The notes under the pieces: model-generated
Seen by the model: only the letters and a program-made list of their open reading frames with translations
What the model was told of the DNA's origin: nothing
Database searches by the model: none
Shown: piece by piece, positions 11,352-21,119 of the stretch
Numbering within the stretch: the stretch's first letter is position 1
Layout: every line of letters begins with the position of its first letter
NCBI GenBank assembly: GCA_028715545.1
Contig: JAQURP010000008.1
Span: forward strand, 1 to 34,170
Reading direction: 5' to 3'
Length of the DNA: 34,170 nt
DNA from: Methanocellales archaeon
GTDB taxonomy: Archaea; Halobacteriota; UBA148
Made by a program: the position numbers and the translations under genes

Positions 11352-12179
11352 ATGAAAAAGATATATGGAGTTATCGGAGACCCGATCGAGCAAAGTCTAT
11401 CGCCAATTATGCATAATGCAGCCTTTCGAAAATTGGGAATAAACGGAGTATACTATGCCTTTCGAGTTAGCTTGGAAAATATGACCAGTGCTATCTTGGG
11501 CGCAAAAGCGCTTGATTTTGGTGGACTGAACGTGACAATACCTCTTAAGGAAAGGGCATTGGATGTGGTCGGTGCTGATCCTATTGCCAAAAAAATAGGT
11601 GCAGTTAATACCATTGATTTTAAGGACAAAATCATCGGCTACAATACCGATGGTATCGGCGCAAAACGGGCTTTGGAGAAGCACAATATCGATGTATCGG
11701 ATAAGAGCGTTTTAATCCTTGGCTCTGGTGGTGCAGCTAGGGCAATTGCGTTTCAGTTCGCACAGGATGGAGCGACACTGGTCATCGCCAATAGAACTGT
11801 ATCTAGGGCAGTTGGGCTCGCACAAGAGGTCAGAGCCATGGGCGAAGGCGATGCAATTGGCATTGGTCTGGAGAGTCTCCCTCTGCTCATAAAAAAAGCT
11901 GACATCTTGGTCAACTCAACTTCGGTCGGGATGCTCCCTCACACGGATAAAACGTTGGTGACTTCAGACCAGATGCACTCTGATTTGGTCGTATTTGACG
12001 TTGTGTACAATCCCATCGAGACTAGATTGCTTAGGGAAGCCAAAAAGGCAGGTGCAATTACCATAGATGGGGTCGACATGCTTGTGCACCAAGGGGCGGA
12101 ATCGTTCAAGATATGGACGTCCCAGAATGCGCCAATAGATGTGATGGGAGATGCTGTGAGATGCGCTCTAAAGTGTTGA
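11352..12179 (+). CDS. aroE: Shikimate dehydrogenase
   Basis: YGVIGDPIEQSLSPIMHNAAF...GLNVTIPLKE...GYNTDGIGA...LILGSGGAARAIAF. Confidence 0.96.
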   Translation: MKKIYGVIGDPIEQSLSPIMHNAAFRKLGINGVYYAFRVSLENMTSAILGAKALDFGGLNVTIPLKERALDVVGADPIAKKIGAVNTIDFKDKIIGYNTDGIGAKRALEKHNIDVSDKSVLILGSGGAARAIAFQFAQDGATLVIANRTVSRAVGLAQEVRAMGEGDAIGIGLESLPLLIKKADILVNSTSVGMLPHTDKTLVTSDQMHSDLVVFDVVYNPIETRLLREAKKAGAITIDGVDMLVHQGAESFKIWTSQNAPIDVMGDAVRCALKC

Positions 12180-13471
12180 TTATCGGCGGGGCAGGGGACA
12201 TGGGGCAGTGGTTTGCACGTGCTCTCAAGAGGAGGGACTATGCAGTCAGCATAGCGGACATCGATCCTCAGGCCCAAGAAGTGGCTAGGGAATTAGGGAT
12301 CGGTTTTGTGGAAGACGTAACAAAAGCAGTGGTCGATTTTGACATCGTGCTAATCTCAGTACCGATAAATGTCACCGAAGAGGTAATAGGCAAAGTAGCA
12401 CCCCATATGCGTCCCGGCAGCTTACTCATGGACATCACATCGGTCAAGAAAGGTCCTATGGGAGCGATGAGAAAGGCGCCAAAAGGCGTTGAGATAATCG
12501 GCACGCATCCAATGTTCGGTCCCACGGTGTCAGAACCCTTAGGTCAGACCGTGATTCTGGTGACGGTGGACGGGCTGTGCGAGAATTGGCTCCCGAAGAT
12601 AGTCGCCCTTTTTGAAGATAAGGGCGCACACGTGGAATTTCTTTCTGCGGAGGAACATGATCAGATGATGGCAGTTATTCAGGGATTAACTCATTTTGCC
12701 TACATAGCAGTCGGTGCTACTATGGATGCCCTTGAGTTCGATCTCAGCAAATCAAGGCGATTTATGAGTCCTGTGTACGAAGTAATGGTCGACTTCGTGG
12801 GGAGAATTCTGGCTCAAAATCCCCACTTATATGCCATGATTCAGGCAAGCCCAGATGTGAAAAAAGTGCATGATACCTTCATAAAACAGTGTTTAGAGCT
12901 GTCGAAGAGCGCTGAGTTTGGAGAAACTGAAAAATTTGTTAGATTGATGAGGAACGCCGCGAGTCATTTTGGCGACACCGAATCCGCCTTAAGAAGGTCT
13001 GACAAGCTCGTTAACGCAAAAATAACAGAGCTTGAGACACTGGTCCAATCTATCGGAGAGGAACGGGGGTTCAGGCATATATATTCTGGTGTTGTGCATG
13101 TTGGGATCGTTAGGAAAGTTACACCTCAGGAGGTTTTGCTGGAGAAGGGGGGAAAAAGGACAGAGTTGAAGATCGAGAATGTCAGTCTGCTTAGTGCAGA
13201 CGAACTTCTCCAGTGGAAGATAGATAACTTGGTGCCCCATAGGAGAGACATATCTGTGGCTTTGTTGGAGAGCGTAAAGCCAGATATTATCGCTGGAATC
13301 CTAGATGGCGTGGATGGCATCCTTTCAGTGGATCAAATTGACACCTATGAGATTAAAAAAGGTCATGTCAGCCTTACATACCGAATAGAAATAAGGGGGG
13401 ACAAAGACCCAAGTGAGGTTCAACATAAGGTGGAAGAATTGTTAGAGGGAATTGGCGGTGAGATACGATAA
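12161..13471 (+). CDS. tyrA: Prephenate dehydrogenase with a C-terminal extension
   Basis: Likely start at 12161 (MRSKVLIIGGAGDMGQWFARALKRRDYAVSIADID), overlapping aroE; GTHPMFGP motif; ~150-aa extra C-terminal region. Confidence 0.88.
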   Translation: MRSKVLIIGGAGDMGQWFARALKRRDYAVSIADIDPQAQEVARELGIGFVEDVTKAVVDFDIVLISVPINVTEEVIGKVAPHMRPGSLLMDITSVKKGPMGAMRKAPKGVEIIGTHPMFGPTVSEPLGQTVILVTVDGLCENWLPKIVALFEDKGAHVEFLSAEEHDQMMAVIQGLTHFAYIAVGATMDALEFDLSKSRRFMSPVYEVMVDFVGRILAQNPHLYAMIQASPDVKKVHDTFIKQCLELSKSAEFGETEKFVRLMRNAASHFGDTESALRRSDKLVNAKITELETLVQSIGEERGFRHIYSGVVHVGIVRKVTPQEVLLEKGGKRTELKIENVSLLSADELLQWKIDNLVPHRRDISVALLESVKPDIIAGILDGVDGILSVDQIDTYEIKKGHVSLTYRIEIRGDKDPSEVQHKVEELLEGIGGEIR

Positions 13472-13528
13472 TTATCTGTCGCATCAAATTATAGTAGACT
13501 TCTTTAACAAAGATCCAGGAGGAAAAAT

Positions 13529-13711
13529 ATGGAGGATCTATCCAGAATAGAATTGACAGCAGGTATCATTGGCGGTATCGGACTTGGGCTGTTGTTGGGA
13601 AGTGAATATTCCGGGAGATATGCAACTCTTTTGGGAGCTGGCTTAATATCGATATTCATTGTTGTTCTGGGTGCCCTGTCTTACCAAATTAAGAAGAAGT
13701 TAGGGGAATAG
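13529..13711 (+). CDS. Small two-helix membrane protein
   Basis: 60 aa; AGGAGG-like sequence just upstream (ccaggaggaaaaat); two hydrophobic segments. Confidence 0.5.
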   Translation: MEDLSRIELTAGIIGGIGLGLLLGSEYSGRYATLLGAGLISIFIVVLGALSYQIKKKLGE

Positions 13712-13936
13712 AATAAATAAAAGGCTACTGAAAGATGGGTATTGGGTGCCAGATTCAATTAAAATAAAAATAGACTATGTTTAAATTTCGCTTGGTGTGT
13801 CTTTGAAAATAAAGTGAGAAATTGACTCCAGGTTAAACGAATAAATAAAAATGGCTGTTAATAGTAGTTGTGTGAAATAAAAATGGGTCGATACAAAATT
13901 CACAAGATTTAATAAATAGAGTAATTAAGATTGAAT

Positions 13937-14385
13937 ATGTTGAAAAGAAAAACCATCCCAAAAAAAGTTCAAATCATTGTATGGAAACGAGATTATTGGA
14001 CTTGCCGATATTGCAATGAGCCTGTTTTTTTAATCCTACATTTAAGCTATTTGAAAAACTAAGTCCAAACCACGGGTATTACCACCCTCATGGTAAAAGT
14101 GATGTTAGACATCAATTTATTGAAAAAAGGATGGCAAGTATAGATCATGTAGTACCTCTCAAAAAAGGAGGTTCTGATGAAATAGATAATTATGTGACTG
14201 CTTGTTGGGAATGTAATTTGAAATTCAGAGAAAAATCATTTGAAGAAAGAAAACCTAAACCACTCCCAATTAATAAAATGGCTGCTAAACTAAATTGGGA
14301 TGGTTTTTCATCTCTTTACATAAAACTTAATAAAAACAAAGATGAATGGATAAAACTCTTAGAATCAGATAGACAAAATGAATAA
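13937..14385 (+). pseudogene. HNH endonuclease, interrupted by a frameshift in a T-tract
   Basis: MLKRKTIPKKVQIIVWKRDYWTCRYCNEPVF (13937 on) continues after a one-base frame change at T7 (14025-14031) into NPTFKLFEKLSPNHGYYHPHGKSDVRHQFIEKRMASIDHVVPLKKGGSDEIDNYVTACWECNLKFREKSF; CxxC...DHVVPLxxGG...CWECN is HNH. Confidence 0.8.
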
Positions 14386-14390
14386 TATGG

Positions 14391-14467
14391 TATAACGCGA
14401 CCCATTTTCACTCTCCTCACAGCTTCGCTGTTCTTAGGCACGTTGCACTCTCGCTAAAGCTAGGCTC
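14391..14467 (+). other. Degenerate/partial attC-like element (left half, E0)
   Basis: TATAACGCG start followed by AGCTTCGCTG...GTTGCACTCTCGCT, resembling the left half of the element at 15206 (GACTTCGCTA..GGTTGCACCTCGCT). Confidence 0.35.
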
Positions 14468-14562
14468 ACTTAACAGCGGATAAACGGCTCAAGTCTTGCA
14501 GACTTTCGCCCAAATTTCTTTCGCTTCGCTCAAGAAACTTCGTTTATCCGCATACGTTATGT
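14468..14562 (+). other. attC-like structured recombination element E1
   Basis: ACTTAAC-A-GCGGATAAACG (14468-14486) ... CGTTTATCCGC-ATAC-GTTATGT (14541-14562): outer 7-bp arms (one mismatch) and inner 11-bp perfect arms with asymmetric spacers. Confidence 0.55.
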
Positions 14563-14632
14563 TCAATTCAGTCTCCTTTAAGTGGAATTCACCAGAAACG
14601 TTTATTAATACGTTTGTATTCGAAAATTTAGT

Positions 14633-15058
14633 ATGAGTATCAATCACGACGCACCCGTGAAAAAGAAAGGAGCATCAAAACCAAAGGACTATTTGGCGCG
14701 CAACTCACGCTATCACAGAAAGTTCGCGATCATGGCGGCAAAAGAGGCCGAGCGAGTCCTCCATATTTTTGAAAAAGAACGTCCAGATGATGATCGCCCG
14801 CGTAAAGCGATACAAGCGATCAGGGATTGGGCGCAGGGAGAGCGGAAGCTGGGAATGGCAGAGGTGCGGAAACTCTCGCTTGATGCTCATGCGGCTGCAC
14901 GCGAATCTAAATCGGACGCAGCAAGATTCGCGGCTCGCGCAGCCGGACATGCCGTCGCAACCTGGCATGTGCCGACTCATGCTATGGGCGCTCCCATATA
15001 TGCTTGCAAAGCTATTGTCGCGAGCAAAGACAAAATGCCTAATGATGGCGGGTTGTAG
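14633..15058 (+). CDS. Putative immunity protein, Imm-5-like
   Basis: RKAIQAIRDWAQGERKLGMAEVRKLSLDAHAAARESKSDAARFAARAAGHAVATWHVPTHAMGAPIYACKAI matches my recollection of the Imm-5-like family. Confidence 0.7.
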   Translation: MSINHDAPVKKKGASKPKDYLARNSRYHRKFAIMAAKEAERVLHIFEKERPDDDRPRKAIQAIRDWAQGERKLGMAEVRKLSLDAHAAARESKSDAARFAARAAGHAVATWHVPTHAMGAPIYACKAIVASKDKMPNDGGL

Positions 15059-15077
15059 GCTGAAAAAACCTTATTTT

Positions 15078-15193
15078 TCGGGCAGTGTTATGTCAGGCCT
15101 TTGCTAGAGAAGAACTACTTCATTTCTTTTACAAAGAAGTAAATTCAGCCCGAACTCAAAAATTTTCCTTCGGAAAGTTGCACTAAATTTTTG
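15078..15193 (+). repeat. Nested inverted repeats downstream of the Imm-5-like gene
   Basis: TCGGGC (15078-15083)/GCCCGA (15148-15153); CAAAAATTT (15157-15165)/AAATTTTTG (15185-15193); GTTATGT at 15087-15093 is identical to the E1 right core. Confidence 0.6.
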
Positions 15194-15205
15194 TCCTTCG
15201 GAGAA

Positions 15206-15303
15206 TATAACACGCATTAATAGACTTCGCTAGGTTGCACCTCGCTCCGTCCAAATATGCTCCGCTACGCTCTGCAAACTTCGGTTAATGCGATACGTTA
15301 GTT
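15206..15303 (+). other. attC-like structured recombination element E2
   Basis: ATATAAC-A-CGCATTAA (left) ... TTAATGCG-ATAC-GTTAGTT (right); same architecture and internal CCAAAT.TGCTCCGCTACGCTC.GCAAACTTCG pattern as E1 with different arm sequences. Confidence 0.55.
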
Positions 15304-15395
15304 GCAATTTGCTACGAGAAACGAACGGAAGCCCTGCTACTGCACTTTCGATACAAAACATTTATCAGTGTTAGTACAATTAAAATAAAATCAAT

Positions 15396-16280
15396 ATGAT
15401 TCCAAGGGACGTATTACAAAAGAGATTCAGAATTTTCATCTTGCTATCTTTGTTTATTTTGTTGATGGAGGTAGCTGGAGGTATATTTACAAACAGCTTG
15501 GCATTGTTAAGTGATGCTGGTCATGTTCTCCTTGATTTACTGGCCCTTCTATTGGCTTATTTTTCAATACGGATTTCGCAAAAGGTCGCGACCAAAAAAT
15601 TTACATTTGGATTTTATAGGGCAGAAATCCTCGTAGCAATTATAAACGGTGCTATGCTCATTTTTGTTACCATTTACATTTTTTATGAATCTTACCTTCG
15701 ATTTCTGTCTCCTCAGCCGATAAAAGGGTCTGAAATGCTTATAATTTCAGCTGTTGGGCTTTTGGCTAATTTATATGTTGTAGTAAAAATGCAAGGTTAT
15801 GAAAAACAAAATCTGAATGTAAGAGGAGCATATCTTCATGTGTTGAGCGATACTCTATCATCGGTTGGTGTTGTCATTGCAAGCATATTAATTGTCATTA
15901 CTGGCAATTACATTTTTGATCCCATAATAAGTGCAATAATAGGATTATTTATTTTAATAGGTTCTCTGCAATTGATAAGAGAATCTGCTCGTATACTCAT
16001 GGAAGCAACGCCCAAGAACATTGATTTAGAGAAATTGTCGAGAGATATTCAAAAAATAAATGGTGTTAAAGAAATTCACGACTTGCATGTTTGGAGTATA
16101 TCCTCAGATGTATACGCACTTAGTTCTCATGTCTTGATAGATGCAAACAATATAAAATCCATGAACAAAATAGTTTCTAACATAAATGAGATGGTTAAAT
16201 CAAAATATAACATAACTCATACTACGATACAATCTGAATGTGAGACTTGTGTTGATGGCGACAATAAGCACAATCATTGA
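15396..16280 (+). CDS. Cation diffusion facilitator (CzcD-like) transporter
   Basis: MEVAGGIFTNSLALLSDAGHVLLDLLALLLAYFS...HVLSDTLSSVGVVIASILI; C-terminal cytoplasmic domain with HDLHVWSISSDVYALSSHVLI. Confidence 0.93.
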   Translation: MIPRDVLQKRFRIFILLSLFILLMEVAGGIFTNSLALLSDAGHVLLDLLALLLAYFSIRISQKVATKKFTFGFYRAEILVAIINGAMLIFVTIYIFYESYLRFLSPQPIKGSEMLIISAVGLLANLYVVVKMQGYEKQNLNVRGAYLHVLSDTLSSVGVVIASILIVITGNYIFDPIISAIIGLFILIGSLQLIRESARILMEATPKNIDLEKLSRDIQKINGVKEIHDLHVWSISSDVYALSSHVLIDANNIKSMNKIVSNINEMVKSKYNITHTTIQSECETCVDGDNKHNH

Positions 16281-16366
16281 TTACTTTTAAGGCAAAGCTT
16301 CCACACAACTTTTATTAGAAAATTATTTAAATAAATTGAATTACGATTAGTTATATGGAATAGGAA

Positions 16367-16672
16367 ATGGAAAAAAAATTTAATGCAATTACAATTATAT
16401 TATTAATAATGCTTATTATCAGGCTTATTGTCCAAGTAATTTTATCTTTCAGCAATTGGATTTCCATTTCATTCGCTGCTTTATACCTTGCTGCTGTGAT
16501 AGGTGTGGTTTTAAAGCAAAAAAGTGGCTCGATATTGACAGAGGTCATTGTAATGATTGATATAACTTTGTCAGCGGTATTTACAACTGGGGCGTATACA
16601 TTTGGGGGAGTTGCCTATGATTTAATCTTAGGATTTTTAGCATATAAAGAATTTAAGCAAATTTCTGATTGA
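16367..16672 (+). CDS. Small membrane protein
   Basis: 101 aa with three hydrophobic segments; same strand as the CDF gene. Confidence 0.5.
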   Translation: MEKKFNAITIILLIMLIIRLIVQVILSFSNWISISFAALYLAAVIGVVLKQKSGSILTEVIVMIDITLSAVFTTGAYTFGGVAYDLILGFLAYKEFKQISD

Positions 16673-16692
16673 TTTTTGTTTGAGGCACATAG

Positions 16693-16708
16693 TATAACAG
16701 CGGATAAA
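16693..16708 (+). other. Left-half attC-like remnant E3
   Basis: TATAACAGCGGATAAA; TAACAGCGGATAAA is identical to the left end of E1 (14471-14484). Confidence 0.4.
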
Positions 16709-16825
16709 TGATAATCATTCCAAAATCGATTAAATGAAAGTTAAAAATCACGATGACACTTCCTTAAATAAAAAATAAGAATTAAAATATCTATTTTCTT
16801 TCAACCCCTCTAAAAAACAAAAAAC

Positions 16826-21119
<4,294 letters not shown>

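Follow-up and report, generated by a model that had tools for sequence, protein, structure and literature searches.

What placed a series of accessory genes, each followed by a palindromic element resembling the attC sites of integron cassettes, between two housekeeping genes of an archaeal chromosome? The window, by which we mean the whole stretch of 34,170 nucleotides analysed here, comes from a Methanocellales archaeon (genome G000), and the genes in question lie between tyrA (12113-13471) and gyrA (16826-19210, - strand). The original prediction saw in this interval a CALIN-like array in an archaeon, probably acquired from outside. Our analysis indicates that the segment 13867-16709 is very probably a three-cassette CALIN whose attC type belongs with a recombinase that is sister to IntI, lacks the IntI insert and would move such cassettes. 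That the host is archaeal is borne out by an MC1 protein and by relatives matching contigs of Methanophagales, Archaeoglobi and Methanoperedenaceae.

Organization of the array

The tyrA-gyrA interval contains four accessory genes, all on the + strand as originally described (an HNH endonuclease, an Imm5-like protein, a CDF transporter and a 101-aa membrane protein), together with two complete attC-type elements, E1 and E2. The elements are built from a YAAC-type box and an arm of 8-11 bp, followed by a complementary arm and a GTTRRRY-like box. A leader (13471..13866, + strand), with a 60-aa ORF at 13529-13711, runs from tyrA to the first cassette, which begins within the insertion point GTTGTGT (13867..13873, + strand).

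Cassette 1 (13868..14556, + strand; 689 bp) consists of the HNH gene (13937..14385; PF01844, 1.8e-9) and E1 (14468..14562, + strand), in which the boxes R'' ACTTAAC and R' GTTATGT (14556-14562) enclose the arms L'' GCGGATAAACG and L' CGTTTATCCGC. The HNH frame is interrupted by a single frameshift within a stretch of seven T residues (14025-14031), and its open part (14131-14385) covers only the C-terminal 84 aa; either an assembly error or decay may be the cause. Two elements, E0 and E1, had been placed after this gene. E1 stands; E0 (GTATAAC, 14390) is rejected as a full attC, being an R-box-like heptamer that even the unfiltered covariance model leaves uncalled.

Cassette 2 (14557..15297, + strand; 741 bp) carries the Imm5-like gene (14633..15058, + strand; PF21805, 2.8e-34) and E2 (15205..15303, + strand), with R'' ATATAAC, L'' CGCATTAA, L' TTAATGCG and R' GTTAGTT (15297-15303). 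Plasmid records gave just five matches to the Imm5-like gene, all below 60% identity, and the idea that it travels on plasmids as a cassette was dropped. Cassette 3 (15298..16709, + strand) holds the gene for a CDF family cation efflux transporter (15396..16280, + strand) and that for the 101-aa membrane protein (16367..16672, + strand), whose corresponding region in genome G001 also adjoins gyrA. It closes with E3 (16692..16709, + strand; GTATAACAGCGGATAAAT), the left half of a truncated attC, common to G000 and its congeners G002 and G003. The proposal that E3 is such a left half agrees with its 14 nt of identity to E1 and its unfiltered model score of 10.2 bits, which mark it as real but degenerate. 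Conserved hairpins with GTTGCACT lie 5' of E1 (14400-14465) and of E2 (15080-15200), and hairpins of this kind precede attCs in G002 and G009 too.

E1 and E2 are attC sites

In place of IntegronFinder or HattCI, which had been suggested for the purpose, we used covariance models of our own. The first of these, R1, was derived from five copies, and in a first survey over 60 relatives it found further copies in 15, mostly within the genus, family and order of the genome with a few other families, and gave no match in the remaining 45. A later model, R3, was trained on recombinase-adjacent attCs only (see below), with no sequence of the window's genus in the training set. Searched over the whole of G000, R3 retrieved E1 at 6.6e-13 and E2 at 2.3e-8, upholding the claim that the two are complete and related, along with seven more sites; an attC search of three control genomes gave zero matches. 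The copies are scattered over chromosomes, with nine in G000, 16 in G003 and 37 in the GoM-Arc1 chromosome GB37.

The R boxes of this family were compared with RYYYAAC/GTTRRRY in two alignments (A3 and A8), where AAC is retained in 59/62 and 73/77 copies and the GTT of R' in 55/62 and 63/77, most copies being at most one mismatch from the R-box consensus. The arms are asymmetric near a conserved ACTTC. Class 1 (classical) attCs share the R boxes alone with the R3 model, their arms and motifs being different from those found here (CCCAAAT, ACTTC).

Among 62 copies, stem positions were 87% paired as compared to 69.5% after shuffling and about 34% in slid controls, and the stems held 201 double-change cells against 73 in shuffled data, in an alignment that had been fitted to the tested structure. 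The covariation thus shows a single-strand structure that is conserved while the sequence of its stem varies, and the fold of E1 agrees with it: the bottom strand of E1 folds with z = -3.8, and 0/200 shuffles did as well. The fold of E2 alone was no better than that of shuffles, and its status as an attC therefore derives from the family model and from an orthologue in G003 (L113:2674-2757). Folded single strands would be the substrate of recombination.

Cassettes are gained and lost between sister species

Alignment of the locus in three congeners revealed where the cassettes begin and end. The last part of the leader, AATAAAAATGGCTGTTAATAGTA, is alignable in G000, G002 and G003, and homology stops in all three at the G|TT of the insertion point, beyond which each genome has a different first cassette: the HNH cassette in G000, the CDF cassette in G002 and a 90-aa cassette in G003. 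Cassette 1 is missing at this locus from both congeners, cassette 2 is present in G003 and not in G002, and cassette 3, which has homologues in both, heads the array in G002. Polymorphic content of this kind, which the original prediction had proposed to look for, has precise borders. In G002 the CDF cassette is joined precisely at the R-box with which E2 ends in the window. The Imm cassette of G003 shares its starting R-box with the one in the window, but a different attC arm precedes it.

A second locus behaves in the same way. Between contig C2 of G000 and contig C8 of G002, one methyltransferase cassette is precisely present in the former and absent from the latter, with the junction GTTATGTG, and the left edge of the C2 array reads ...ACTT|GTTATGC, where G001 and G004 differ. 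As read from these aligned junctions, the gain and loss of cassettes at the G|TT of an R-box is the integron crossover rule.

The array is an archaeal CALIN of a resident system

We use CALIN for two or more attC sites that are separated by less than 4 kb and have no integron integrase nearby. E1 and E2 are about 740 bp apart, and the search for intI that had been proposed gave no TIGR02249 match anywhere in G000; since the genome has no intI, the array is a CALIN, and the reading of the locus as a CALIN-like array in an archaeon, with G|TT cassette borders, further copies in the genome and polymorphic content, is sustained. None of the outcomes named beforehand as refuting it was seen within the reach of our own covariance models. 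A classical integron, in the sense of an IntI with the I2 insert in the same genome, was found neither in G000 nor in seven attC-bearing relatives.

The array is thereby an archaeal CALIN of a kind already published (Ghaly et al. 2022, PMC9668308). The portions of that paper on archaeal integrons likewise describe attC arrays in the chromosomes of archaeal MAGs, mostly without intI. They also report six archaeal IntIs described as having the IntI-specific domain, in contrast to the recombinase associated with these arrays here, which lacks it, and they contain no polymorphism of cassette junctions between sister species such as we see at this locus.

The suggestion that the array was probably acquired from outside is not supported as it was stated. 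The same attC type occurs in G002, G003 and G004, across the order and in several other families of the phylum. Given this distribution, the array belongs to a resident system, whose individual cassettes may nonetheless move horizontally.

A sister clade of IntI accompanies these attCs

In two genomes, G033 and G006, attC copies were found beside a tyrosine recombinase other than IntI. Among 397 genomes of the phylum, 28 contain a member of this recombinase family, and attCs were detected at 12 of the 26 recombinase loci examined there, many of which reach the contig edge just downstream of the recombinase; all 24 sites lay downstream and on the recombinase strand. In 146 kb of control sequence, made up of fifteen regions (seven with distant recombinases, eight drawn from the same genomes), there was no attC.

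A scan of GTDB genomes extended this set to 80 named recombinase loci in archaea and bacteria, most of them from metagenome assemblies. The archaeal loci belong to Methanophagales, Alkanophagales, Methanoperedenaceae (GoM-Arc1), Archaeoglobi, Altiarchaeota and Nanohalarchaeota, and the bacterial ones, isolates among them, include Nitrospirota, WOR-3, Atribacterota, Dehalococcoidia, Spirochaetes and Clostridia. At the 80 loci, attC matches numbered 71 downstream (63/71 on the same strand) and 6 upstream, with 334 kb of upstream and 204 kb of downstream sequence searched; 63 of these 77 matches have E below 0.01, and the weakest of the others reach E = 1. The nominal binomial p-value of the downstream bias is 2e-23, a figure that counts the sites as independent, though they are not. 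A downstream attC was present at 36 of the 45 loci that had either a match or no less than 1.5 kb of sequence on that side, and none was detected at the other 9. The single-contig GoM-Arc1 chromosome GB37 (1.92 Mb) combines its 37 attCs with two clade recombinases and no IntI over the cut-off. Across seven attC-bearing genomes, IntI over the cut-off was found in none, and six have a clade recombinase. As separate observations, attC matches lie just 5' of the recombinase gene at L230, L236, L256 and L260, as if the gene were inside an array, and decayed copies of the recombinase occur (L082 of G034, L005, L006), one without the catalytic arginine region and the others truncated or frameshifted.

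The recombinase is related to IntI and distinct from it. The two recombinases tested fail TIGR02249 (237 and 215 bits, cut-off 265) and pass NF040815 recomb_XerA_Arch (253 and 242, cut-off 220), a family annotated as site-specific tyrosine recombinase/integron integrase. They differ from it in having an attI-like site and attC arrays and in making up a clade of their own next to IntI, with full support. In the tree they make up one clade (100/99), which is sister to IntI with moderate support (90/81) and stands apart from Xer and other archaeal recombinases. The nearest solved structures are Vibrio IntIA and archaeal XerA. Alignment to IntIA leaves residues 170-240 unmatched, the place of the IntI-specific insert, and the distance from KGxKxR to HxLRH is 58-62 aa in 75/75 loci measured, indicating that the insert is absent. 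A C-terminal SPL motif is common to the recombinase and IntIA, and the catalytic R-K-H-R-H-Y residues are conserved (GLRxxE, KGRKDR, HSLRH, LGH and YTH in alignment A7). An AlphaFold model had pLDDT 71 and pTM 0.47, with a poor C-terminus.

The regions downstream of 77 recombinase genes share an attI-like motif (log-likelihood 827, as compared to a shuffled maximum of 384), made of inverted repeats followed by TTCGGATATGAACGA|GTTRNRYG, beyond which the sequences diverge. It lies no more than about 200 nt past the terminal conserved SPLD codons of the recombinase gene, and a few of the loci lack a good match. Like a classical bacterial integron, these loci present an integrase gene, an adjacent attI-like site ending in a GTTRRRY-like core, same-strand cassettes, folded attCs and G|TT crossover. 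In contrast to it, the recombinase lacks the IntI insert and has an N-terminal HARP-like part, integrase and cassettes have the same orientation, and the arrays are many, small and dispersed.

A model for the origin of the array

Sequence comparison establishes the attC sites, the cassette junctions, the recombinase clade and its association with the sites, and the evidence for recombination is entirely comparative. From it we infer that the clade recombinase catalyses the reaction. Each cassette starts at the TT of an R-box GTT, stops at the G of the following one (the last cassette stops in a truncated attC) and comprises one or two genes and then an attC with a complementary, sequence-variable stem. 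The clade recombinase would act on these attCs as IntI does on classical ones, and a tyrosine recombinase, now gone from G000, would have moved cassettes in and out as complete units, with G|TT as the crossover point. At a threshold of E = 1e-60, no clade member was found in G000 or the other genomes of its family, so the link of the clade to the window rests on the shared attC type, and one of two assumptions is needed: G000 may have kept its cassettes after losing the recombinase, or may receive its activity in trans.

Alternative explanations

One variant, compatible with the model above and with about an even chance of being correct, concerns the entry site: cassettes may insert at scattered attG-type sites, the tyrA leader being one of these and not a decayed attI. 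The dispersal of the sites over the chromosomes would fit such insertion, as would the G000 C2 array edge at GTTATGC. So would the weak score of the window leader on the attI-like motif (8.3 bits, which ranks third among the 507 GTTs of the + strand). On the other side, the leader of G002 is the top attI-like match in its own locus, and visual inspection shows in the leader both an inverted repeat (TTAAACG...CGTTTAA in G002) and a spacing to GTT that resemble those of the attI-like motif. These matches are suggestive only, and the window leader may be either a decayed attI or an attG-type site. Insertion at attG is known in bacteria (Loot et al. 2024, as cited in the relevant passages of PMC12444791), where cassettes likewise settle at many chromosomal places outside the integron platform; those passages describe it for bacteria with a classical IntI.

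It seems unlikely that this is an ordinary integron whose cassettes a classical IntI moves in trans, the non-IntI recombinase being no more than a neighbour. Such an IntI does exist in a congener: contig C69 of G002 (L010; 2.5 kb) bears a truncated classical IntI that scores above the TIGR02249 cut-off, next to two cassette genes (one for an HNH protein, the other a 120-aa ORF), and its tetranucleotide correlation of 0.86 is inside the range of other G002 stretches; the contig could be genuine or misbinned. The R boxes shared with class 1 attCs would suit such an enzyme, and the experimental portions of PMC9668308 report that IntI1 recombined 8/9 archaeal attCs at frequencies like those of a classical attC. 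Against this, IntI over the cut-off was found in only 1/60 relatives and in none of the seven attC-bearing genomes, the cassettes borne by the G002 IntI have no R3 score, and it is the other recombinase that sits 5' of the same-strand arrays with its own attI-like site.

The elements are highly unlikely to be terminators or dispersed palindromic repeats of the MITE or REP kind. Their dispersal, their palindromic form 3' of genes and the presence of some conserved hairpin sequence upstream would match, but R boxes, variable yet complementary stems, gene-then-element arrays and exact gain and loss at R' are unexpected for MITEs or terminators.

Implications

Integrons are defined by an IntI with the I2 insert, and standard searches require such an I2-bearing IntI. 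We consider it likely that the recombinase described here represents a second integron platform across many archaeal and bacterial phyla, based on an IntI-sister integrase without I2, and that the window array is an orphaned part of it. What is new about the array lies in the likely identity of its source platform. If this is true, either attC recombination has no need of I2 or the clade binds attC differently, and the clade could explain the integrase-less look of most archaeal arrays and possibly of part of the bacterial ones. The origin of I2 has been presented as a chicken-and-egg paradox, in that it is unclear how it was selected before attC sites existed (Escudero et al., PMC4792948); an I2-less sister clade at attI-like sites before attC arrays would make this question testable. 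We found no earlier description of such a platform in the open-access literature, which was the scope of our search; one is possible in subscription papers and preprints, which lay outside it.

Additional observations

Contigs C36 of G000 (L054) and C1 of G003 (L060) share their 187-aa and cupin cassettes but hold them in another place with respect to a TauE-like gene, a rearrangement that is real and includes a duplicated flank of about 70 bp. Two viral contigs carrying the 16-nt motif TAACAGCGGATAAACG were searched and no attC sites were found in them. An Rfam search of the window gave no match to an attC-like family; it gave one match to a CRISPR direct repeat (RF01320) at 2307-2343. On the - strand of the window, positions 561-681 hold a further attC-like left half (GCCTAACAGCGAATAAAAGGCTTCGCT...CCCAAAT; R3 E = 0.018), the right half of which has been lost.
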